A stretch of DNA of 40,718 bases, from the IMG/VR virus record IMGVR_UViG_3300045885_000294, positions 1 through 40,718 of that record; one strand, written 5' to 3'. The notes under the pieces were generated by a model. The model was not told the DNA's origin. It did not search any database and saw only the letters and a list, made by a program, of their open reading frames with translations. A program made the position numbers and the translations under genes. The stretch is from a virus. The first letter of the stretch is position 1, and the number at the start of each line of letters is the position of its first letter. Positions 3,488-40,718 of this stretch are shown in pieces.

Positions 3488-3897
3488 TGGCGAAGGCAAT
3501 CGAGATAAGCACTGAAGGCTTCGACGAGTCGATAGCGGCGCTGTCGCAGTCGGCGCACTACATCCGCGAGCGCATTGCAAAGCCGCTCGAGGTCCTGAAC
3601 GAGGTCCGCTCCCGCGTGGTGGCGGGTGCCCCGACGAAGACGGGCGCGTTGCGCGCCAGCATCACGCAGACGCGGCTATCCGCGAGCGCCAGCACGGGCG
3701 CCGTCTCCGCCGAGATCCGGGCCGGGCGCAAGCTCCCGCGCCCTTATGACTACTGGGTGGAGTACGGGACCGCGCGCATGTCCGCGCGGGCGTTCTTCTG
3801 GCCGCCCATCGAGGGCAGCGAGCCGCGCATTGCCCAGGAGTTCGGGCTCGCCGTCGACGACATCGTGAAGCACCTGGCAGGAGGCCTTGCCGTATGA
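3487..3897 (+). CDS. HK97 gp10-like head-tail joining protein
   Basis: 136 residues. The family signature is visible: a central segment AGAPTKTGALRASI followed by a YWVEYGTARMSARAFFWPPIE stretch, matching the 'TGxLrxSI ... vEyGT ... a.pF..pa' pattern of HK97 gp10-type head-tail joining or tail components. The ATG overlaps the preceding stop. It acts at the head-tail interface and sits between the putative terminator and the major tail protein as expected. Confidence 0.82.
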   Translation: MAKAIEISTEGFDESIAALSQSAHYIRERIAKPLEVLNEVRSRVVAGAPTKTGALRASITQTRLSASASTGAVSAEIRAGRKLPRPYDYWVEYGTARMSARAFFWPPIEGSEPRIAQEFGLAVDDIVKHLAGGLAV

Positions 3898-4190
3898 GTA
3901 CCGAGCTAAAGTTCCGCGGCAAGTTCCGCACTCTGCCTGACGGCTCGCGCGAGCCGGAGGCCGCGATGCCGGGCATACCAGCGTCCGATCTTAGCGACGA
4001 GGACCTGCAGCGCCTTGCTCGTCAGCGCGGCATGACGCCGGCCGCGTTGCGCAAAGAACTGGTCGGCAGCGGCTACTACCGAGAGGCAACCCGCAAGGGC
4101 AAGGCGGACGAAGACGAAGCGGGTGCAGACGACGACAGCGCCGGCGAGCCCGGTGACGACAACGAGGACGAGGAGTCCGAGGAGGAGTAG
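3894..4190 (+). CDS. Acidic-tailed tail-region protein
   Basis: 98 residues, ATG overlapping the previous stop (ATGA). A conserved-looking front (FRGKFRTLPDGS) and a small helical segment (LSDEDLQRLARQRGMTPAALRKELVG) precede a C-terminus made almost wholly of Asp and Glu. The helical part resembles a short SAP/HeH-like fold sometimes seen in phage structural operons. The acidic tail echoes the two small genes near 1.7-2.1 kb. Function unknown. Confidence 0.55.
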   Translation: MSTELKFRGKFRTLPDGSREPEAAMPGIPASDLSDEDLQRLARQRGMTPAALRKELVGSGYYREATRKGKADEDEAGADDDSAGEPGDDNEDEESEEE

Positions 4191-4192
4191 CC

Positions 4193-5224
4193 ATGCCGGC
4201 CGGTAACAGAGCATTTAGGTATCTGCAGGTAGGTAAGCAGGGCAATGTCGGCGCGCTCGGCTCAAGCGTAGCGGCGAGCGCGATCCTCAAGCCGGACGCC
4301 GGCACGCTGAAGTTGACACAGAACCTGCAGTTTCATGAGCAGGAGCTAGAGGTCGCACACCTCGCCGCCTACCACGGCAGCGAGCTCCTTGCGCAAGGCC
4401 CGTACGACGTCACCTACAACGCGGACGCGACCTACCAGCAGATCCTCTACCTGCTCGAGGGGATCATCGAGCCGGCGACGATTACCACGCCGACTAATGG
4501 CGTCTTGACCAGGCTCTGGACTTACGACCCTCCCTGGACGTCCGCGCCGGGGCAGCGCGTCTATACGCTCGAGTTCGGCGATGACCTGATCGCCTACACG
4601 ATCGACACCTGTTACCTGGAGTCGATGCAGATGACGCTCGGCCTGGCTGCGCCGGTCAAGGTATCGAGCACCTTCAAGGGCTTCAACCGGACCGAGGAAG
4701 CGAAGACCGCGGCGCTCACGGTGCCGACGACGGAGACGATGATCTCCGGCATGGCGACGCTCTACATGGAGGACACCGGGGCGGCGATCTCCGGAGCCGC
4801 GCCGACCGAGATCGCGGACGTCCTGATCGACGGCCAGCTGACGATTAACTCCGGCCTGAAGGCGGAGCGGCGGCTCAACGGCGACCTCGGCCTGGCGGTC
4901 ATCGCGCAGGACAGGCGGCAGATGATCGAGTTCACCGGGACGGCCGAGCTCAACAGCGACTCGGACGCCTGGGCCGGCCTCCTCGACGCGAACACCAAGA
5001 AGTTCTTCAAACTGCAGGTACAGGGCAGCCTGATCGAGTCGGTCACGCCGGACTACTTCCAGAAATTCGAAGTCATGTGGTGCGGCCGCTTCCGGAGCTT
5101 CGACCCGTTCGGCGAGCTCGCCGGCATCAACACGGTGCCGTTCTCGACTAACAGCGAGTTTGACTCGACCTGGGGCAAAGAGGCGCTGGTGAGGGTCCAG
5201 ACGACGGTCACGACGCTGCCGTAG
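4193..5224 (+). CDS. Major tail (tube) protein
   Basis: 343 residues, just after the joining genes and just before the frameshifted chaperone pair and tape measure, the standard site of the tail-tube gene. The protein is beta-rich, with segments such as TLEFGDDLIAYTIDTCYLESM and VKVSSTFKGFNR resembling the tube strands of siphovirus tail proteins. It is longer than a minimal tube protein (about 200-250 residues), so an added Ig-like or decoration domain is possible. A ribosome site precedes the ATG (GAGGAGTAGCC). Confidence 0.8.
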   Translation: MPAGNRAFRYLQVGKQGNVGALGSSVAASAILKPDAGTLKLTQNLQFHEQELEVAHLAAYHGSELLAQGPYDVTYNADATYQQILYLLEGIIEPATITTPTNGVLTRLWTYDPPWTSAPGQRVYTLEFGDDLIAYTIDTCYLESMQMTLGLAAPVKVSSTFKGFNRTEEAKTAALTVPTTETMISGMATLYMEDTGAAISGAAPTEIADVLIDGQLTINSGLKAERRLNGDLGLAVIAQDRRQMIEFTGTAELNSDSDAWAGLLDANTKKFFKLQVQGSLIESVTPDYFQKFEVMWCGRFRSFDPFGELAGINTVPFSTNSEFDSTWGKEALVRVQTTVTTLP

Positions 5225-15775: not shown

Positions 15776-15894
15776 GCGGACAGCTGAAGATGGGCGGCGG
15801 CGTCGGAATGCGTATCAGGCGCGCCGGCGAGCAGCCGCGGGAAAGCAGATGGCAGCGAGTGCTGAGGAGGGTCAAGCGATGGTTTCGGACGTAA
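15772..15894 (+). CDS. Short basic peptide
   Basis: 40 residues, ATG overlapping the endolysin stop (ATGA). It is strongly basic in its second half (RWQRVLRRVKRWFRT), an amphipathic cationic helix, so a membrane-active or lysis-helper role is possible. It also contains the ribosome site of the next gene (GAGGAGGGTC). Function inferred from composition only. Confidence 0.5.
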   Translation: MSGQLKMGGGVGMRIRRAGEQPRESRWQRVLRRVKRWFRT

Positions 15895-16598
15895 TGATGC
15901 TCGGTGAGAAGGGATTCCCGGTGGTCACGGTCAAAGACGGCTGGGTGCCGGGCGAGCTAGCGGCGCGGCTCGCCCGCTACAACCCGCGGACCGAGTTGGG
16001 GCGCGTCATCCGGGACTGCTTCCAGTACCTGCCGCCGGCGATGGCCGGCGAGCTTCTGGACCGTGTGAGCAGCGTGGTTGTCCTGCAGTCGGCGCTGAGC
16101 ATCCGCGTCCTGCGCGCCTGCAGCGAAAGCACCCATCCATTTCTAGACAATCGTGGCCGTTGCCTCGAGTGCCATAAATACGCCGTCGAGGACTGGGGCG
16201 AGGTCGGACACAAGGTCATCACGACGACAGGCGTGGGCTTCCTGGTGGACGCCTGGCAGGGGTCGACCGAGATGGAAAACATGAAGTACCACGGTCTCGG
16301 GACGGGCTCGACGGCAGAGGCGGCGAGCGATTCGGCGCTGGTGACGGAGTTAACGACCGAATATACCGGCAACGTGCGCGCCACCGGCTCGACCACCGAG
16401 GCGAGCGCGACCGTGTTTCGCTCAGTCGGCTCCAACCTGCTCGATGGCACGCCGGGCGCGGCGCTGCGCGAGCACGGGCTGTTCTCGGCGTCGTCTGCGG
16501 GCGTGCTCTGGGACCGGACGGTCTACGCGGCGATCACGCTGAGCTCAGGCGATACACTTGAAAGTACGTATGACATGTCAGCATCAAGTGGAGGTTAG
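15879..16598 (+). CDS. Phage tail/fibre protein with recoded C-terminus
   Basis: 239 residues from ATG 15879, chosen for the GAGGAGGGTC ribosome site 8 bases upstream; an ATG at 15849 lacks one. Residues 130-239 match a common phage structural domain (KYHGLGTGSTAEAASDSAL, then TEYTGNVRATG, EHGLFSASSAGVLWDRTV and a final TYD...GG). The last 12 codons (16563-16598) use AT-rich codons unlike the rest of the gene and end TYDMSASSGG. An orphan copy encoding TYDMTGSTGG lies past the homing endonuclease at 17177-17212. The C-terminus has thus been replaced by the mobile element while the product stays full length. Confidence 0.8.
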   Translation: MVSDVMMLGEKGFPVVTVKDGWVPGELAARLARYNPRTELGRVIRDCFQYLPPAMAGELLDRVSSVVVLQSALSIRVLRACSESTHPFLDNRGRCLECHKYAVEDWGEVGHKVITTTGVGFLVDAWQGSTEMENMKYHGLGTGSTAEAASDSALVTELTTEYTGNVRATGSTTEASATVFRSVGSNLLDGTPGAALREHGLFSASSAGVLWDRTVYAAITLSSGDTLESTYDMSASSGG

Positions 16599-16602
16599 TC
16601 TG

Positions 16603-17154
16603 TCATACAGACCGAGAATGGTTCAGGAGCTTCATTTGGGAGCGGTAGCCATCCAGCCAGGTTTTGTCGGCCTTGAGGCTCGGGACTCGCAGGCGGGCTA
16701 TAAAGTCCAGTGCGAGGTCCGCCTGGGCGGTCTTGATCCGCATGTAAGGTCGGATCTGCTCCAACAACCCCGCTGCGGATTCGCCGTGCGTCTGCCAGAA
16801 ATAGCCCTGCTGATGGTGACGGGCGAGACGCGGCTTGTTGTGAATCGCTCCCAGGCCCGTTACCTCAATCAACCACTCCAGGACGCCGCGGTGGGTGTTC
16901 GTGATGTTTACCCGCAGCGTCAAGCTCAGTTCCGACCGGCGGTAAAGCATGATGCTCCCCTCGCCGTCGATAAGCCCGGCGAGATAGGCCGCGTCCGTAG
17001 GCGAGAGTTGAACGCAAGTCCGGCTCGTCCGATAGCGGGCTGCCCGCTGGCACTCAAGGGAACAGAACCGCTGATAGCGATAAGTTCCTCCACTTCGCGG
17101 AACCTCAAACGATTTCGCGCAGGCCTCGCAGGTTTTCTCTAGGAGTGTTCGCAT
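16603..17154 (-). CDS. LAGLIDADG homing endonuclease, free-standing
   Basis: 183 residues, the only leftward gene in the late operon. One LAGLIDADG motif is clear (YLAGLIDGEGSIML, about residues 57-70), so it probably works as a dimer; the Asp/Glu of the motif bind the catalytic metal. An N-terminal zinc-finger-like segment (CEACAKSF ... RFCSLEC) may help DNA binding. The gene is inserted precisely at the 3' end of the upstream tail gene. No intron or intein elements flank it: only 4 bases separate its stop from the host gene's stop. A weak leftward promoter may lie at about 17160-17175 (GGTAAACT read on the minus strand). Confidence 0.93.
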   Translation of the reverse strand: MRTLLEKTCEACAKSFEVPRSGGTYRYQRFCSLECQRAARYRTSRTCVQLSPTDAAYLAGLIDGEGSIMLYRRSELSLTLRVNITNTHRGVLEWLIEVTGLGAIHNKPRLARHHQQGYFWQTHGESAAGLLEQIRPYMRIKTAQADLALDFIARLRVPSLKADKTWLDGYRSQMKLLNHSRSV

Positions 17155-17176
17155 GTCGCGAGTTTACCACATCTTA

Positions 17177-17212
17177 TCGACGTACGACATGACTGGTTCG
17201 ACGGGCGGGTGA
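17177..17212 (+). pseudogene. Displaced original 3' end of the upstream tail gene
   Basis: Read in frame these 36 bases encode STYDMTGSTGG and a TGA stop, the same peptide ending as the gene stopping at 16598 (STYDMSASSGG), but in GC-rich codons. It has no start and is cut off from its gene by the endonuclease. It includes GGGCGGGTGAG, the apparent ribosome site of the next gene (GTG 17216), which may explain why it was kept. Confidence 0.85.
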
Positions 17213-17215
17213 GCC

Positions 17216-17488
17216 GTGGCGCTGCTACCTGCAGGAAAGCTGCTCGTCCTCCAGGGCTACACGGTGGACCCGGCCGCGAACGGTATCCAGCTGCACTTCG
17301 TCTGCAGCGACCCCGGTCCGGGGCTGCCCACTGACTATTACCTGTTCATGCCGCACGACGAGCTCGAGGGCGCGACGAACCTGACGCAGCTGCGGACGCT
17401 GATTAACGGGCGCATTGACAGGTATATCGGGACGGACGCGGTGATTGACCGTGTGAACCAGATAACCGGGGAGACGTTCACGGTATGA
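17216..17488 (+). CDS. Hypothetical structural-operon protein
   Basis: 90 residues, GTG start 3 bases after the orphaned tail-gene stop, showing that this gene originally followed the tail gene directly. An alpha/beta pattern is visible: LVLQGYTVDPAANGIQLHFVCSD then a helix (NLTQLRTLINGRIDRYIG). Overlaps the next ATG by 4 bases. No family recognised. Confidence 0.65.
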   Translation: MALLPAGKLLVLQGYTVDPAANGIQLHFVCSDPGPGLPTDYYLFMPHDELEGATNLTQLRTLINGRIDRYIGTDAVIDRVNQITGETFTV

Positions 17489-26804: not shown

Positions 26805-28886
26805 ATGGACGACGAGCTGGTCAAGCAGTTTGCGGCGCTCTTCCGCGGCCGCAGGGACGCGTACGGACTGAGGACAGGAATGACGGTCAAGGAGCCAGTC
26901 GGCAGGTCGACCTACCGGGCCCACCTCGAGGGCCGGGAGGCCATTGGCATCTTCCCAGTGACCGATGACGGGACCTGCCACTTTGCCGCCGTCGACTTCG
27001 ACCGCGTCCGCGGCAACTTCACGCCGCAGGAGATTGATTCCCTGGCCCTGCACGACGCCGGGCTCTTCATGGAGCAGTGCGACCGCTTCGGCCTCAACCG
27101 GCTGTGGCTCGAGCGCAGCCGGCGCAAGGGCTGCCACGTCTGGGTGTTCTTCGACGGCGCGGTCAAGGCGGCAGAGATCCGGCGGGTGTTCAGCGCCGCC
27201 CTGGCGGCCGCGGGCATTACGCAGTACGAGCTCTTCCCCAAGCAGGACACGGTCTATCCCGAACTGGAGCCTCTCGTTGACAAAACCTTGCAAGACCTGC
27301 GGCACCTTATTTCGAGCTCACCCGAAGGGGCTGGCCAATTGCCCGCTGCATCGGCGAGCAAGGAAGCCGAACGGTGGAATGATTCAGAAACCGTGTCAGG
27401 TTTGCGGCGTACTGTTCGAGACGGAAGCCAGCCGGACACGCTTCAAGACGACATGTCCCGTTCATCACCGTGGGGGGTACACGCGCGATCGACATTACTG
27501 GTGGAAGGGTGGTCGAGAGCAACGGGGGAACGGTTATATCGGGATCTTGTTACCGGGCCACCCTATGTCCGACAGCAAAGGGGTCGTTTTGGAGCATCGC
27601 CTGGTAGCGAGTCAGATGCTAGGACGGCTTTTGACAGGGGACGAAATCGTGCATCACAAGGACCACAACCGAGCGAACAACTCACCCGACAATTTGCAGA
27701 TATTGTCGAGAGTCGAGCACTCGCGGTTGCACAGATTAAATCCACCCCACGCTTCGGAAACTATTTGAATCTCCCCTACCCCGGCGGGAACAATGACGCC
27801 GGGCGGCAGATGATGCTCGACCGGGCGACGCACGCGCCGGTCCTGCTGCTCGACTTCCTCAAGCTGGTCGAGCGTTTCCCCGCCGGCAGCCTCGGGCTGG
27901 TGCTCGACGAGCTGCCGGAGCAGCAGGACAGCGGGCCGCGCAGTTTCGGCCGGGTGAGGGTCGGCGGTGGCGGGCGCTCGAGCTGGTATCCCTGCACGGC
28001 GCCGTTGCTCAACGTCAACCTGCACGACGGCGGCGGCCGCAACGAGCTGGCGCTCGTGCTGGCCCGCCGGCTGCAGGCCTCGCCCCTGAGCGGGGCGGCG
28101 AAGGCGATTTACGACCAGTGGAACCAGGGCAACACGCCGCCGCTGTCGGAGCACGAGGCGGACCGCACCTGGGACTCTGCCGAACGTTACCAGGGGATGT
28201 TCTGCGAGAAGGTCCGCGAATGGCAGGGCGACGAGAGCGAGGTCATCCGCGCGACCTGCGTGGAGTCCTGCGCAATTCATCCCTCGAAGGGAATCGGCAG
28301 CTATCGCAGGCTGCGCAAGGAGCAGACGGACCCGCCGACCTACTATCTGGCGATCGGCGGCGAAGACACCCGCCTGACGGCCAACGAGCTATGGCGGCAC
28401 TCGGAGCTCTGCCGGGCTGTGATGACGCAGATCGACCGCGTCGTCCCGCCGATGAAGGACGCGCGCTGGCGGGACATCCTGCAGCAGCTGCTAGACGACA
28501 TCCAGGTCCTGCAGGTACCGGCAGAGATGACGCCGCGTGGCGAGCTCTGGTCGGCGATGTGCGACTGGTTCAGCGGCTCGTCCGAGCACGAGGAGGACAT
28601 CGAGGCGAAGCCGGTGCAGCGGGACGAGCATATCTACTTCAAGTTACGCGGGCTGGGCGCCTTCCTGCGCCGCCAGGGCCTGAATCCAAAACGGGATGTT
28701 ATGTGGGCGGTCCTCAAGGATCGTGGCGGTTGTAACGGCACGAGCAGATTCGCAGGCGTTGTGCACCGTGTTTGGTGGCTGCCAGCGGTGGAGTTTTCCG
28801 AGCAGACGTTACAGGACGAGCCGTTTTTAGATTCCCGTAACGCTTTAACTCGTAACGCGCGAAAAATTTCCGAGAACGATTTCTGA
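26805..28886 (+). CDS. Archaeo-eukaryotic-type primase with PriCT domain, interrupted by an HNH gene
   Basis: The frame is open for 693 residues, but only about 530 belong to the primase. Residues 1-150 hold the catalytic core of a TOTE-like primase: HFAAVDFDRV (metal-binding Asp pair), WLERSRRKGCHVWVFF (S-x-x-x-G-x-H), and ELFPKQD. The next core motif, FGNYLNLPY, comes only after an extra 163 codons (27264-27752) that encode, in another frame, an HNH nuclease. Then follow a PriCT-like section (GGGRNELALVLARRL) and a C-terminal DNA-binding region. Read in the primase frame the insert is low-complexity and charged. How active primase is made is unclear. Confidence 0.82.
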   Translation: MDDELVKQFAALFRGRRDAYGLRTGMTVKEPVGRSTYRAHLEGREAIGIFPVTDDGTCHFAAVDFDRVRGNFTPQEIDSLALHDAGLFMEQCDRFGLNRLWLERSRRKGCHVWVFFDGAVKAAEIRRVFSAALAAAGITQYELFPKQDTVYPELEPLVDKTLQDLRHLISSSPEGAGQLPAASASKEAERWNDSETVSGLRRTVRDGSQPDTLQDDMSRSSPWGVHARSTLLVEGWSRATGERLYRDLVTGPPYVRQQRGRFGASPGSESDARTAFDRGRNRASQGPQPSEQLTRQFADIVESRALAVAQIKSTPRFGNYLNLPYPGGNNDAGRQMMLDRATHAPVLLLDFLKLVERFPAGSLGLVLDELPEQQDSGPRSFGRVRVGGGGRSSWYPCTAPLLNVNLHDGGGRNELALVLARRLQASPLSGAAKAIYDQWNQGNTPPLSEHEADRTWDSAERYQGMFCEKVREWQGDESEVIRATCVESCAIHPSKGIGSYRRLRKEQTDPPTYYLAIGGEDTRLTANELWRHSELCRAVMTQIDRVVPPMKDARWRDILQQLLDDIQVLQVPAEMTPRGELWSAMCDWFSGSSEHEEDIEAKPVQRDEHIYFKLRGLGAFLRRQGLNPKRDVMWAVLKDRGGCNGTSRFAGVVHRVWWLPAVEFSEQTLQDEPFLDSRNALTRNARKISENDF
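27277..27768 (+). CDS. HNH homing endonuclease nested in the primase gene
   Basis: 163 residues from TTG 27277 (ATG 27378 is the fallback). Two zinc-ribbon-like halves, KPCKTCGTLF...NCPLH and KPCQVCGVLF...TCPVHH, show the upstream start is used. The HNH part is clear: EHRLVASQMLGRLL, EIVHHKDHNRANNSPDNLQIL and EHSRLH. Its TGA (27766-27768) overlaps TTG in the primase frame. The gene uses the +1 frame relative to the primase, is more AT-rich at its ends, and fills the whole insertion, so no room remains for an intron ribozyme. Confidence 0.88.
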   Translation: MTKPCKTCGTLFRAHPKGLANCPLHRRARKPNGGMIQKPCQVCGVLFETEASRTRFKTTCPVHHRGGYTRDRHYWWKGGREQRGNGYIGILLPGHPMSDSKGVVLEHRLVASQMLGRLLTGDEIVHHKDHNRANNSPDNLQILSRVEHSRLHRLNPPHASETI

Positions 28887-34439: not shown

Positions 34440-34498
34440 TATACGCGCACGCGTAATGTAACGACTCCTCGCGCGCGCGCGCGTTGCGTGCGTGTATA
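34440..34498. repeat. Long stem-loop with alternating purine-pyrimidine tracts
   Basis: TATACGCGCACGC (34440-34452) pairs with GCGTGCGTGTATA (34486-34498), 13 pairs with one G-T wobble, around a 33-base loop containing an alternating GC tract (34470-34484). It is the only sizeable structured gap before the packaging genes, so a cos or pac element or a regulatory hairpin is possible. Alternating CG/TA DNA can adopt Z-form. Confidence 0.6.
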
Positions 34499-34505
34499 TA
34501 TAGGA

Positions 34506-34871
34506 ATGCCGCAAGCTCCCTCGCGCCCATGCTCTAACGCCAGCTGTCCCAACCTACAGCCCTGCCCGGTCCACAAGCGTTCTCGCACGCACGACAATGC
34601 CCTGGTCGGTGGCTCTGGCTGGAAGTGGCAGCGCACCCGCGAGCGCATCCTTGCCCGCGACAACTACTGGTGCCGCTGCCTGCACCGCTTTGGTTGCGCG
34701 GCCAGCTGCTCGGGCGTCGCCACGCAGGTCGACCACATCGTCGAGCTCGCCGACGGCGGCGTCACCGCGGACGAAAACCTATGCTCTATGTGTTATAATT
34801 GTCACCAGAAAAAGACTAACCAGAGTAGGCGGATGCGTAGTGGCAGTCCCGATCAAGATCGAGGCCGGTGA
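34506..34871 (+). CDS. Terminase-adjacent HNH endonuclease with recoded 3' end
   Basis: 121 residues from ATG 34506. HNH signature: [48 protein letters not shown]. Proteins of this type lie beside terminase genes and assist DNA packaging and cos/pac cleavage. Its last codons from about 34780 become AT-rich, and the tail continues as [13 protein letters not shown]..., overlapping the inserted endonuclease. The original ending (CLQCHQVKTNAARV...) is orphaned at 35461-35529. The core zinc/HNH residues are retained, so it should be active. Confidence 0.85.
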
Positions 34872-35460
34872 TAGGTTTGGGCGGTGGGTAATTACGGAAG
34901 GGCGGGAGAACCCGAAGAGCCGCGCGATTCGAGCTCGGTGCGACTGCGGAACTGAGAAGACCGTCGATCTACACCATCTCCGTTACGGAAAGTCGCAGTC
35001 GTGTGGCTGCCTCGCAGTTGAACTCGCATCTGCTCGGGCCAAACACGGGCTCAGCCCTCACGGAGTTGGGGATCGGCGGGCTCAGGGTCATCCTCTTTAC
35101 GCGACATGGAACGGAATGAAACAGCGCTGCACTAATCCGAAAAACAATAGGTACCCTGGCTATGGAGGCCGAGGGATCGTTGTTTGCGATCGCTGGATGT
35201 CTTCTTTCGAGGCCTTCATTGCCGACATGGGCGAACGCCCTGCGGGTCAATCGTTGGATCGTATTGATAACGATGGACCGTACTCGTCGGAGAATTGCAG
35301 ATGGGCGAGCAAGTCTGAACAGTCTCGGAATCGACGGTACTCCGATGGCCGATTAGGTCCCTGCCGTGCCTGCGGGCGTGAGGATGGGAGATTTCGGCTG
35401 AATCTGTGCGGCTCTTGCTACATGAAGGACTGGAAGCGCAGGCGGGCTGGCTCGGCATAG
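34840..35460 (+). CDS. HNH/AP2-like homing endonuclease inserted in the HNH gene
   Basis: 206 residues from GTG 34840 (the start is set by the insertion; no strong ribosome site). Zinc segment with CDCG and SCGCL at residues 34-61; a catalytic region like phage HNH/AP2 proteins: [65 protein letters not shown]; and a C-terminal zinc finger CRACGRED...[10 protein letters not shown]. The gene overlaps the host HNH 3' end by 32 bases. Its TAG is immediately followed by the displaced original host end. AT-richer than neighbours, so acquired. Confidence 0.85.
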
Positions 35461-40418: not shown

Positions 40419-40718
40419 ATGGCGACTGCGACGGCAGAGAAGCACGAGGAGCTGCGGGCTCAGGCCCAGGAAGCCTACGTGAAGGCGGCGGAGCTCAAGG
40501 CGAAGTTCAAGGAGGAGGGACTCGACCCGGACGAGCACCCGGACAAGGTCACGGAGATCGAGAACCTCTACAAATCAGCGCAGAAGCTCGAGCAGGACGC
40601 CGAGCAGGCCAGGGAGCGACATGAGACCTGGCAGAACCTGGACCGCGCGCTCGACTCCAAGAGTGCGACGAACGGCCGCCGGCCGGCCATCTTCGGTGAT
40701 AGCCGGGACGCTGGGAAC
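40419..40718 (+). CDS. Major capsid protein, N-terminal part (continues at base 2)
   Basis: ATG with perfect AGGAGGT site. These 100 codons give the charged, coiled-coil-like delta domain (EKHEELRAQAQEAYVKAAELKAKF, then EIENLYKSAQKLEQDAEQARERH). The frame joins the one starting at base 2, where bases 40592-40718 are repeated. The protease just upstream would remove this region in proheads. Confidence 0.92.
   Translation, partial: MATATAEKHEELRAQAQEAYVKAAELKAKFKEEGLDPDEHPDKVTEIENLYKSAQKLEQDAEQARERHETWQNLDRALDSKSATNGRRPAIFGDSRDAGN
40592..40718. repeat. Terminal direct repeat, right copy
   Basis: Exact copy of bases 1-127; joining the ends through this overlap restores a single capsid frame. 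The unique genome length is 40,591 bases. Confidence 0.93.

Follow-up and report, generated by a model that had tools for sequence, protein, structure and literature searches.

We report a phage tail gene that has two versions of its own ending, one in use in front of a LAGLIDADG homing endonuclease gene and the other stranded behind it, and we consider it quite probable that intronless homing by this free-standing endonuclease of the I-CreI type produced the insert at 16545-17176. Positions are those of the window, by which we mean the whole stretch of DNA analysed, namely one IMG/VR virus record of 40,718 nt (IMGVR_UViG_3300045885_000294). A wider reading, to which we give about even chances, is that a phage endonuclease lineage has become specialised for the 3' ends of a single tail-gene family and spreads between unrelated phages as a "home-and-rescue" drive: the codons of the last beta-strand would be cut, a respelled ending would restore the protein and block re-cutting, and the old ending would be left stranded; in phages whose ending is not respelled, a group I intron at the site would give immunity, and HNH endonucleases would have converged on the site. 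The features on which the argument is built are collected in Table 1.

Table 1. Features of the tail-gene locus of the window, and the probable intron in the related locus L114
Feature	Position	Strand	Basis or remark
Tail gene, phrog_5417 family	15849-16598	+	start possibly ATG at 15879
Recoded 3' end of the tail gene	16545-16598	+	GC3 0.24 vs 0.86 upstream
Position homologous to the L114 intron insertion	16558-16559	+	DTL^ESTYD (window) vs DSI^QFTYD (L114)
Ending in use, STYDMSASSGG-TAG, within the last beta-strand	16563-16598	+	ORF translation, predicted model
LAGLIDADG homing endonuclease gene	16603-17154	-	phmmer, Foldseek, PHROG
Leader 5' of the endonuclease ORF, forming the right-hand limit of the insert	17155-17176	-	between endonuclease start and displaced ending
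Mini-ORF of 19 codons through the displaced ending	17153-17212	+	in-frame ATG at 17153
Displaced native ending, STYDMTGSTGG-TGA	17177-17212	+	peptide class; junction as in L038
Next gene, 90 aa, GTG start	17216-17488	+	ORF; without family
Probable group I intron, 224 nt	L114 4599-4822	-	restored frame, splice pairing, shared core

The bases 1-127 of the window are seen again at 40592-40718, which indicates terminal redundancy or circular closure, and the genome is therefore probably complete and terminally redundant. The tail ORF, the LAGLIDADG ORF, both endings and the start of the gene at 17216 were found at the coordinates and in the frames which a preliminary description of this DNA had given for them. 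The antisense endonuclease ORF begins 4 nt beyond the end of the tail gene, and the orphan ending at 17177-17212 is separated by 3 nt from the GTG of the next gene. No gene had been seen in front of this orphan, which is right, with the qualification that a mini-ORF runs into it from an in-frame ATG (peptide MSRVYHILSTYDMTGSTGG, then the stop); as this stop falls 3 nt before the GTG, one may speculate that the mini-ORF and the next gene are translationally coupled.

The tail gene matches PHROG 5417 (E=1.9e-12). Its product was modelled with moderate confidence (pLDDT 72), and the predicted fold is most similar to a Haloferax tailed virus 1 tail protein and to the fibre-tail adaptor of phage GP4; because the model resembles a haloarchaeal virus tail protein and this adaptor, "tail gene" seems a fair name for 15849-16598. 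The last beta-strand of the model (residues 236-247) is encoded at the site where the two endings are at issue, and losing it would therefore take away a core strand of the predicted protein. Homologues of the gene are found in more than 100 IMG/VR records, and there are none in the annotated phage records searched. The C-terminus common to the IMG/VR relatives is GD-x-L-x-x-TYD-x-T-x-x-SGG, and most of them run straight into the next gene (gap of at most 30 nt in 49 of 61, median 5 nt).

The two endings of the window agree at 8 of 11 residues and at the stop; of their 36 bases 21 are identical, where a count of about 20 had been given before. The best GC3 break of the tail gene is located at codon 16545, the codons after it being AT-rich, as the preliminary description had noticed. 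A break of this strength was reached by 1 of 5000 permutations, and the drop exceeds that of every one of the 62 homologues which carry no endonuclease. We then scored the first 21 nt of each ending with a matrix of the native site, built from 52 endonuclease-free homologues, most of them GC-rich. The ending in use obtains -1.2, below all 52 homologues (12.2 to 29.0), and the displaced copy obtains 14.5, inside their range. From these scores and from the fall of GC3 we take the ending in use, 16545-16598, to be foreign or respelled and the orphan to be native.

That the sequence at 17177-17212 is the native ending, displaced, can also be read from its right-hand junction: the intact tail gene of L038 ends in TTYDMTASAGG, tga, GCCGTGG and the displaced copy in STYDMTGSTGG, tga, GCCGTGG, so that L038 shows the window's own junction. 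L038 is no close relative of the window, and what the comparison with this insert-free gene establishes is the shape of the ending and the junction. An uninterrupted relative of this kind had been predicted, together with a homologue of the 17216 gene right after it. The first part is found in L038; for the second, a search of viral_contigs gave no relative of the 17216 gene, and the comparison of the next gene consists of the spacing and 8 identical bases only. This gene has no match in Pfam or PHROG either, and the 92-aa gene which follows the tail gene of L003 has no similarity to it by BLAST. The collections searched did not yield a close relative of the window with an empty site. The earlier proposal that the right copy is old and the left copy was brought in agrees with the shape of the family's endings, the spacing to the next gene, the GC3 break and the matrix score. 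Of the two observations that had been named as speaking against it, neither was made: a natural doubling of the ending is absent from the relatives, and none of those lacking the endonuclease has an ending as diverged as that of the window.

The product of 16603-17154 has an N-terminal CxxC...CxxxC zinc knuckle and a single LAGLIDADG motif, LAGLIDGEGS. It matches natural I-CreI by phmmer (E about 1e-6; I-MsoI is matched too) and by Foldseek (E about 1e-8, TM 0.6-0.7), as well as PHROG 5046 (E=2.3e-24). With one LAGLIDADG motif per chain, its acidic residue in place, and the predicted fold of I-CreI, the gene is, as far as sequence and model tell, that of a homing endonuclease of the I-CreI/I-MsoI type. 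It behaves as an optional, free-standing and intronless gene, being absent after more than 50 distinct tail homologues and present after 8. Annotated phage records contain only distant endonucleases, and the same is true of the genome_contigs scan, where these come mostly from Clostridia.

Other endonuclease-like frames were observed at several places. At about 27230-27720 of the window (in the ORF 26965-27768), an HNH endonuclease frame lies inside an AEP-type primase gene (26805-28886) without interrupting the frame of the latter, with low GC3 at 27564-27690; Rfam found no intron in this region of the window. The window also has a free-standing HNH endonuclease gene (PF01844) at 34488-34868, overlapped by an ORF, 34597-35460, of which the C-terminal half, judged from its sequence, seems similar to homing endonucleases of the AP2/HNH type. 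In L049, an HNH-like frame with a zinc knuckle, at about 3897-4430, appears to interrupt a DNA methylase gene.

Searching with the endonuclease, we obtained a group of eight from unrelated phages: the window, L110, L113, L114, L117, L163, L164 and L047, the last one being reached through its tail gene. All eight lie directly beyond a homologue of the window's tail gene, on its 3' side (in L117 the homology is weak, E=0.004), as against 0 of the 16 more distant endonucleases of the tree set (Fisher p about 1e-6, for a contrast picked after the pattern had been seen). Judged by where its genes stand, this group is dedicated to the 3' end of one tail gene. Four members are antisense and have one or no zinc knuckle (window, L113, L114, L117), and four are sense and have two (L047, L110, L163, L164). 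The tree places the eight on one side of a branch with weak support (36/0), and a single origin for them would go beyond what this value carries. L150, considered as a further case, was rejected, its endonuclease being next to a different tail paralogue, on the 5' side of it, and not at this site. A recognisable displaced copy is absent from five of the eight members (L113, L114, L110, L047, L163); none can be read in L047 and L163, since there the coding sequence for the C-terminus of the endonuclease reaches the start codon of the next gene. Shorter candidates precede the next gene in two members, L164 (STVGG, stop) and L117 (TGNGG, stop). Two such ends in the five non-window spacers have a shuffle probability of 0.003, calculated post hoc, and we regard them as suggestive only of displaced endings. 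Separately, we noted that the same tail gene is directly followed by an HNH endonuclease with zinc knuckles in L285 (2990-3702) and by the remnant of an HNH endonuclease in L268 (2985-3308).

Breaks of GC3 are visible at other insertions: 54 codons before the stop in L163 (p<0.0005), 16 codons before the stop in the tail gene of L285, whose endonuclease is HNH (a drop, p=0.0012), and 136 codons before the stop in L047 (p=0.002). The break is borderline in L113 (p about 0.05) and insignificant in L110, L114, L117 and L164. If only falls of GC3 at p<0.01 that lie no more than 60 codons from the stop are counted, 3 of 9 tail genes with an endonuclease show one, vs 0 of 62 other ones (Fisher p=0.0015, exploratory). 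For L114, where p is 0.98 and where low GC weakens the test, the lack of a break would fit with protection by an intron and not by respelling.

Indeed, the tail gene of L114 is broken after GATTCCAT, and the removal of 224 nt joins ACAGTTTACCTACGATCTC, which restores SADSIQFTYDLTFTSGG and the stop; without these 224 nt the gene reads DSIQFTYDLTFTSGG, then the stop. The element starts beside a GTGG able to pair with CCAT and ends in G. It has a strongly conserved core in common with an element that separates two coat-protein fragments in the phage record MW202674.1, and the P7 strands of both, ACGACUA and UAGUC, are identical. The group I model of Rfam matched neither in L114 nor in the window, and the folding energy of the L114 element is ordinary (z -1.1). 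The case for an intron is made by the restored frame, the U-G splice pairing seen by eye and the core in common with MW202674.1, and we call it a probable group I intron only, because Rfam did not recognise it. As for MW202674.1 itself, the element which shares its core with L114 4599-4822 splits a P22-type coat gene. The preliminary description had seen no intron at the tail gene, and Rfam found none in the window; its relative L114, however, has this probable one at the same site. The insertion point in L114 corresponds to 16558/16559 of the window, and the displaced copy begins at the serine codon 4 nt downstream. The window's fragment thus begins where the intron inserts in L114, which fits with a double-strand break near that point, and 16558-16559 is presumed to be at or near the cleavage site.

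We propose the following course of events. The target of the enzyme would be the DNA coding for the conserved last beta-strand of the tail protein, around GD-TLE-STYD, and the cut would fall near 16558-16562 of the empty gene. The donor would carry the endonuclease gene just past the stop codon of its tail gene, which would be intact for that reason; its site would be diverged, and the donor allele would be spared through these sequence differences. Repair would enter from the left by tail-gene homology, copy the end of the donor's tail gene and the endonuclease, and close on the right-hand end of the break, since the right flank of the donor would offer no homology there. The recipient would gain in this way a complete, differently spelled C-terminus and an endonuclease, and its former C-terminal codons, those to the right of the break, would be left stranded before the next gene, where they may have been kept for the translation start region of that gene. 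The recoded left site would then be immune to cutting. From the architecture of the locus, the native right copy, the foreign or respelled left copy and the group's dedication to this gene end, we infer the cutting, its exact site, the origin in a donor, the one-sided repair and the immunity.

Ordinary two-sided co-conversion from a donor could have delivered the insert as well, the right copy being then the leftover of an earlier version of the tail gene or of a tandem duplicate mostly deleted at insertion. Further tail genes do follow in the window's cassette, and in the five phages without a recognisable displaced copy the conversion may have been two-sided. Against this, the conserved C-terminal motif is doubled in the window only, tandem endings being absent from the other tail-homologue loci retrieved, and about 4 nt separate the start of the displaced piece from the L114 intron point, its junction to the next gene being that of intact relatives. 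We consider this explanation improbable. The native ending might also have been duplicated locally on insertion, and its left copy respelled in place by selection against cutting, so that a foreign donor would have had no part in it. In favour of this, GC3 is 0.24 in the ending in use and 0.73 in the endonuclease, and one AT-rich donor does not explain both; the ending may either have been selected for its difference from the target or have a separate history of its own. However, the respelled tract starts 18 nt upstream of the duplicated segment, which fits with copying of donor sequence across the break and would not be foreseen for a simple duplication of the last 36 nt, and a drop in composition at or upstream of the site is seen in three phages (window, L163, L285); local duplication has, in our opinion, little chance of being right. 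Finally, that an unrelated endonuclease came to lie between two genes beside a meaningless peptide match, or that two strains were joined in assembly, is hardly credible in spite of the match being 11 residues long and the contig metagenomic, for of 12 letters 9 agree, namely 8 residues and the stop, in a match that is correctly placed and in frame (best other match elsewhere in the window 7 letters, and 6-7 in five shuffles), seven other phages have a member of the endonuclease group at this site, and a chimera is unlikely because the copies match at 21 of 36 bases with no long exact stretch in common.

One-sided repair after homing, our preferred reading, would describe a route by which a free-standing endonuclease can settle inside an essential coding end without intron or intein. 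Gene drives made in the laboratory rescue the gene which they cut by means of a recoded 3' end. Apparently the same solution has evolved in phages, where it would recur in several lineages. One target seems to be seen here in two states, recoded and protected by an intron, which bears on the origin of collaborative homing and of mobile introns, and the phage genomes concerned are small enough for tests in laboratory hosts.

The enzyme of the window resembles I-CreI and I-MsoI in having one LAGLIDADG motif per chain and the same predicted fold; unlike them, it is free-standing in a phage, has added N-terminal zinc knuckles and would have a different target. Among phage systems, F-CphI and the psbA intron of cyanophage S-PM2 were reportedly the subject of Zeng et al. 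in 2009. This pair is a case of collaborative homing (PMC6083498), in which an endonuclease acts together with an intron, as is known from phages (PMC10448857). L114 is similar in that an endonuclease of the group is next to a tail gene whose presumed target contains a probable group I intron. An intron of this kind is seen, as a probable one, in L114 only and was not found in the window, whose allele would be protected by respelling instead; moreover, the endonuclease of the window is LAGLIDADG whereas F-CphI is of the Endo VII type.

Free-standing phage endonucleases which cut a neighbouring gene are known (PMC2988022). As in the intronless homing of the Seg and Mob enzymes of T4 described there, the endonuclease of the window stands beside a conserved gene, its presumed target, and spread by repair from a donor allele is what we propose for it too (PMC2988022). 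The T4 enzymes differ in being GIY-YIG or HNH, and the sections cited mention no displaced gene end or replacement C-terminus (PMC2988022). We found no phage case combining a replacement C-terminus with a displaced native end in the open-licence literature.

Fungal rps3 genes had been put forward as a precedent. The closest one that we found is another, the mORF hybrids of mitochondria, in which the core of the gene is followed by a foreign C-terminus, an endonuclease ORF and the native C-terminus; they are known for atp6, atp9, cox2 and nad3 of Glomus, and the same layout exists in atp6 of Allomyces macrogynus (PMC3630166). Their endonuclease ORFs are mostly LAGLIDADG, and in Glomus the two ends have 64-81% DNA identity while the proteins agree (PMC3630166). 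C-terminal duplications with endonuclease ORFs have also been reported from Endoconidiophora (PMC6279837). The window has the same order, a foreign C-terminus on the side of the gene and a native one beyond the endonuclease ORF, and its two ends likewise agree in protein and differ in DNA. It departs from the mORF hybrids, which are organelle genes, in that the host gene is a phage tail gene, in that the enzyme has a single motif of the I-CreI type with a zinc knuckle and is antisense to the host gene, and in that the displaced end adjoins the start of the next gene. Hence, an architecture of the mORF kind being already known from fungi, the newer part, as far as these sequences indicate, would be a group of endonucleases dedicated to one site.
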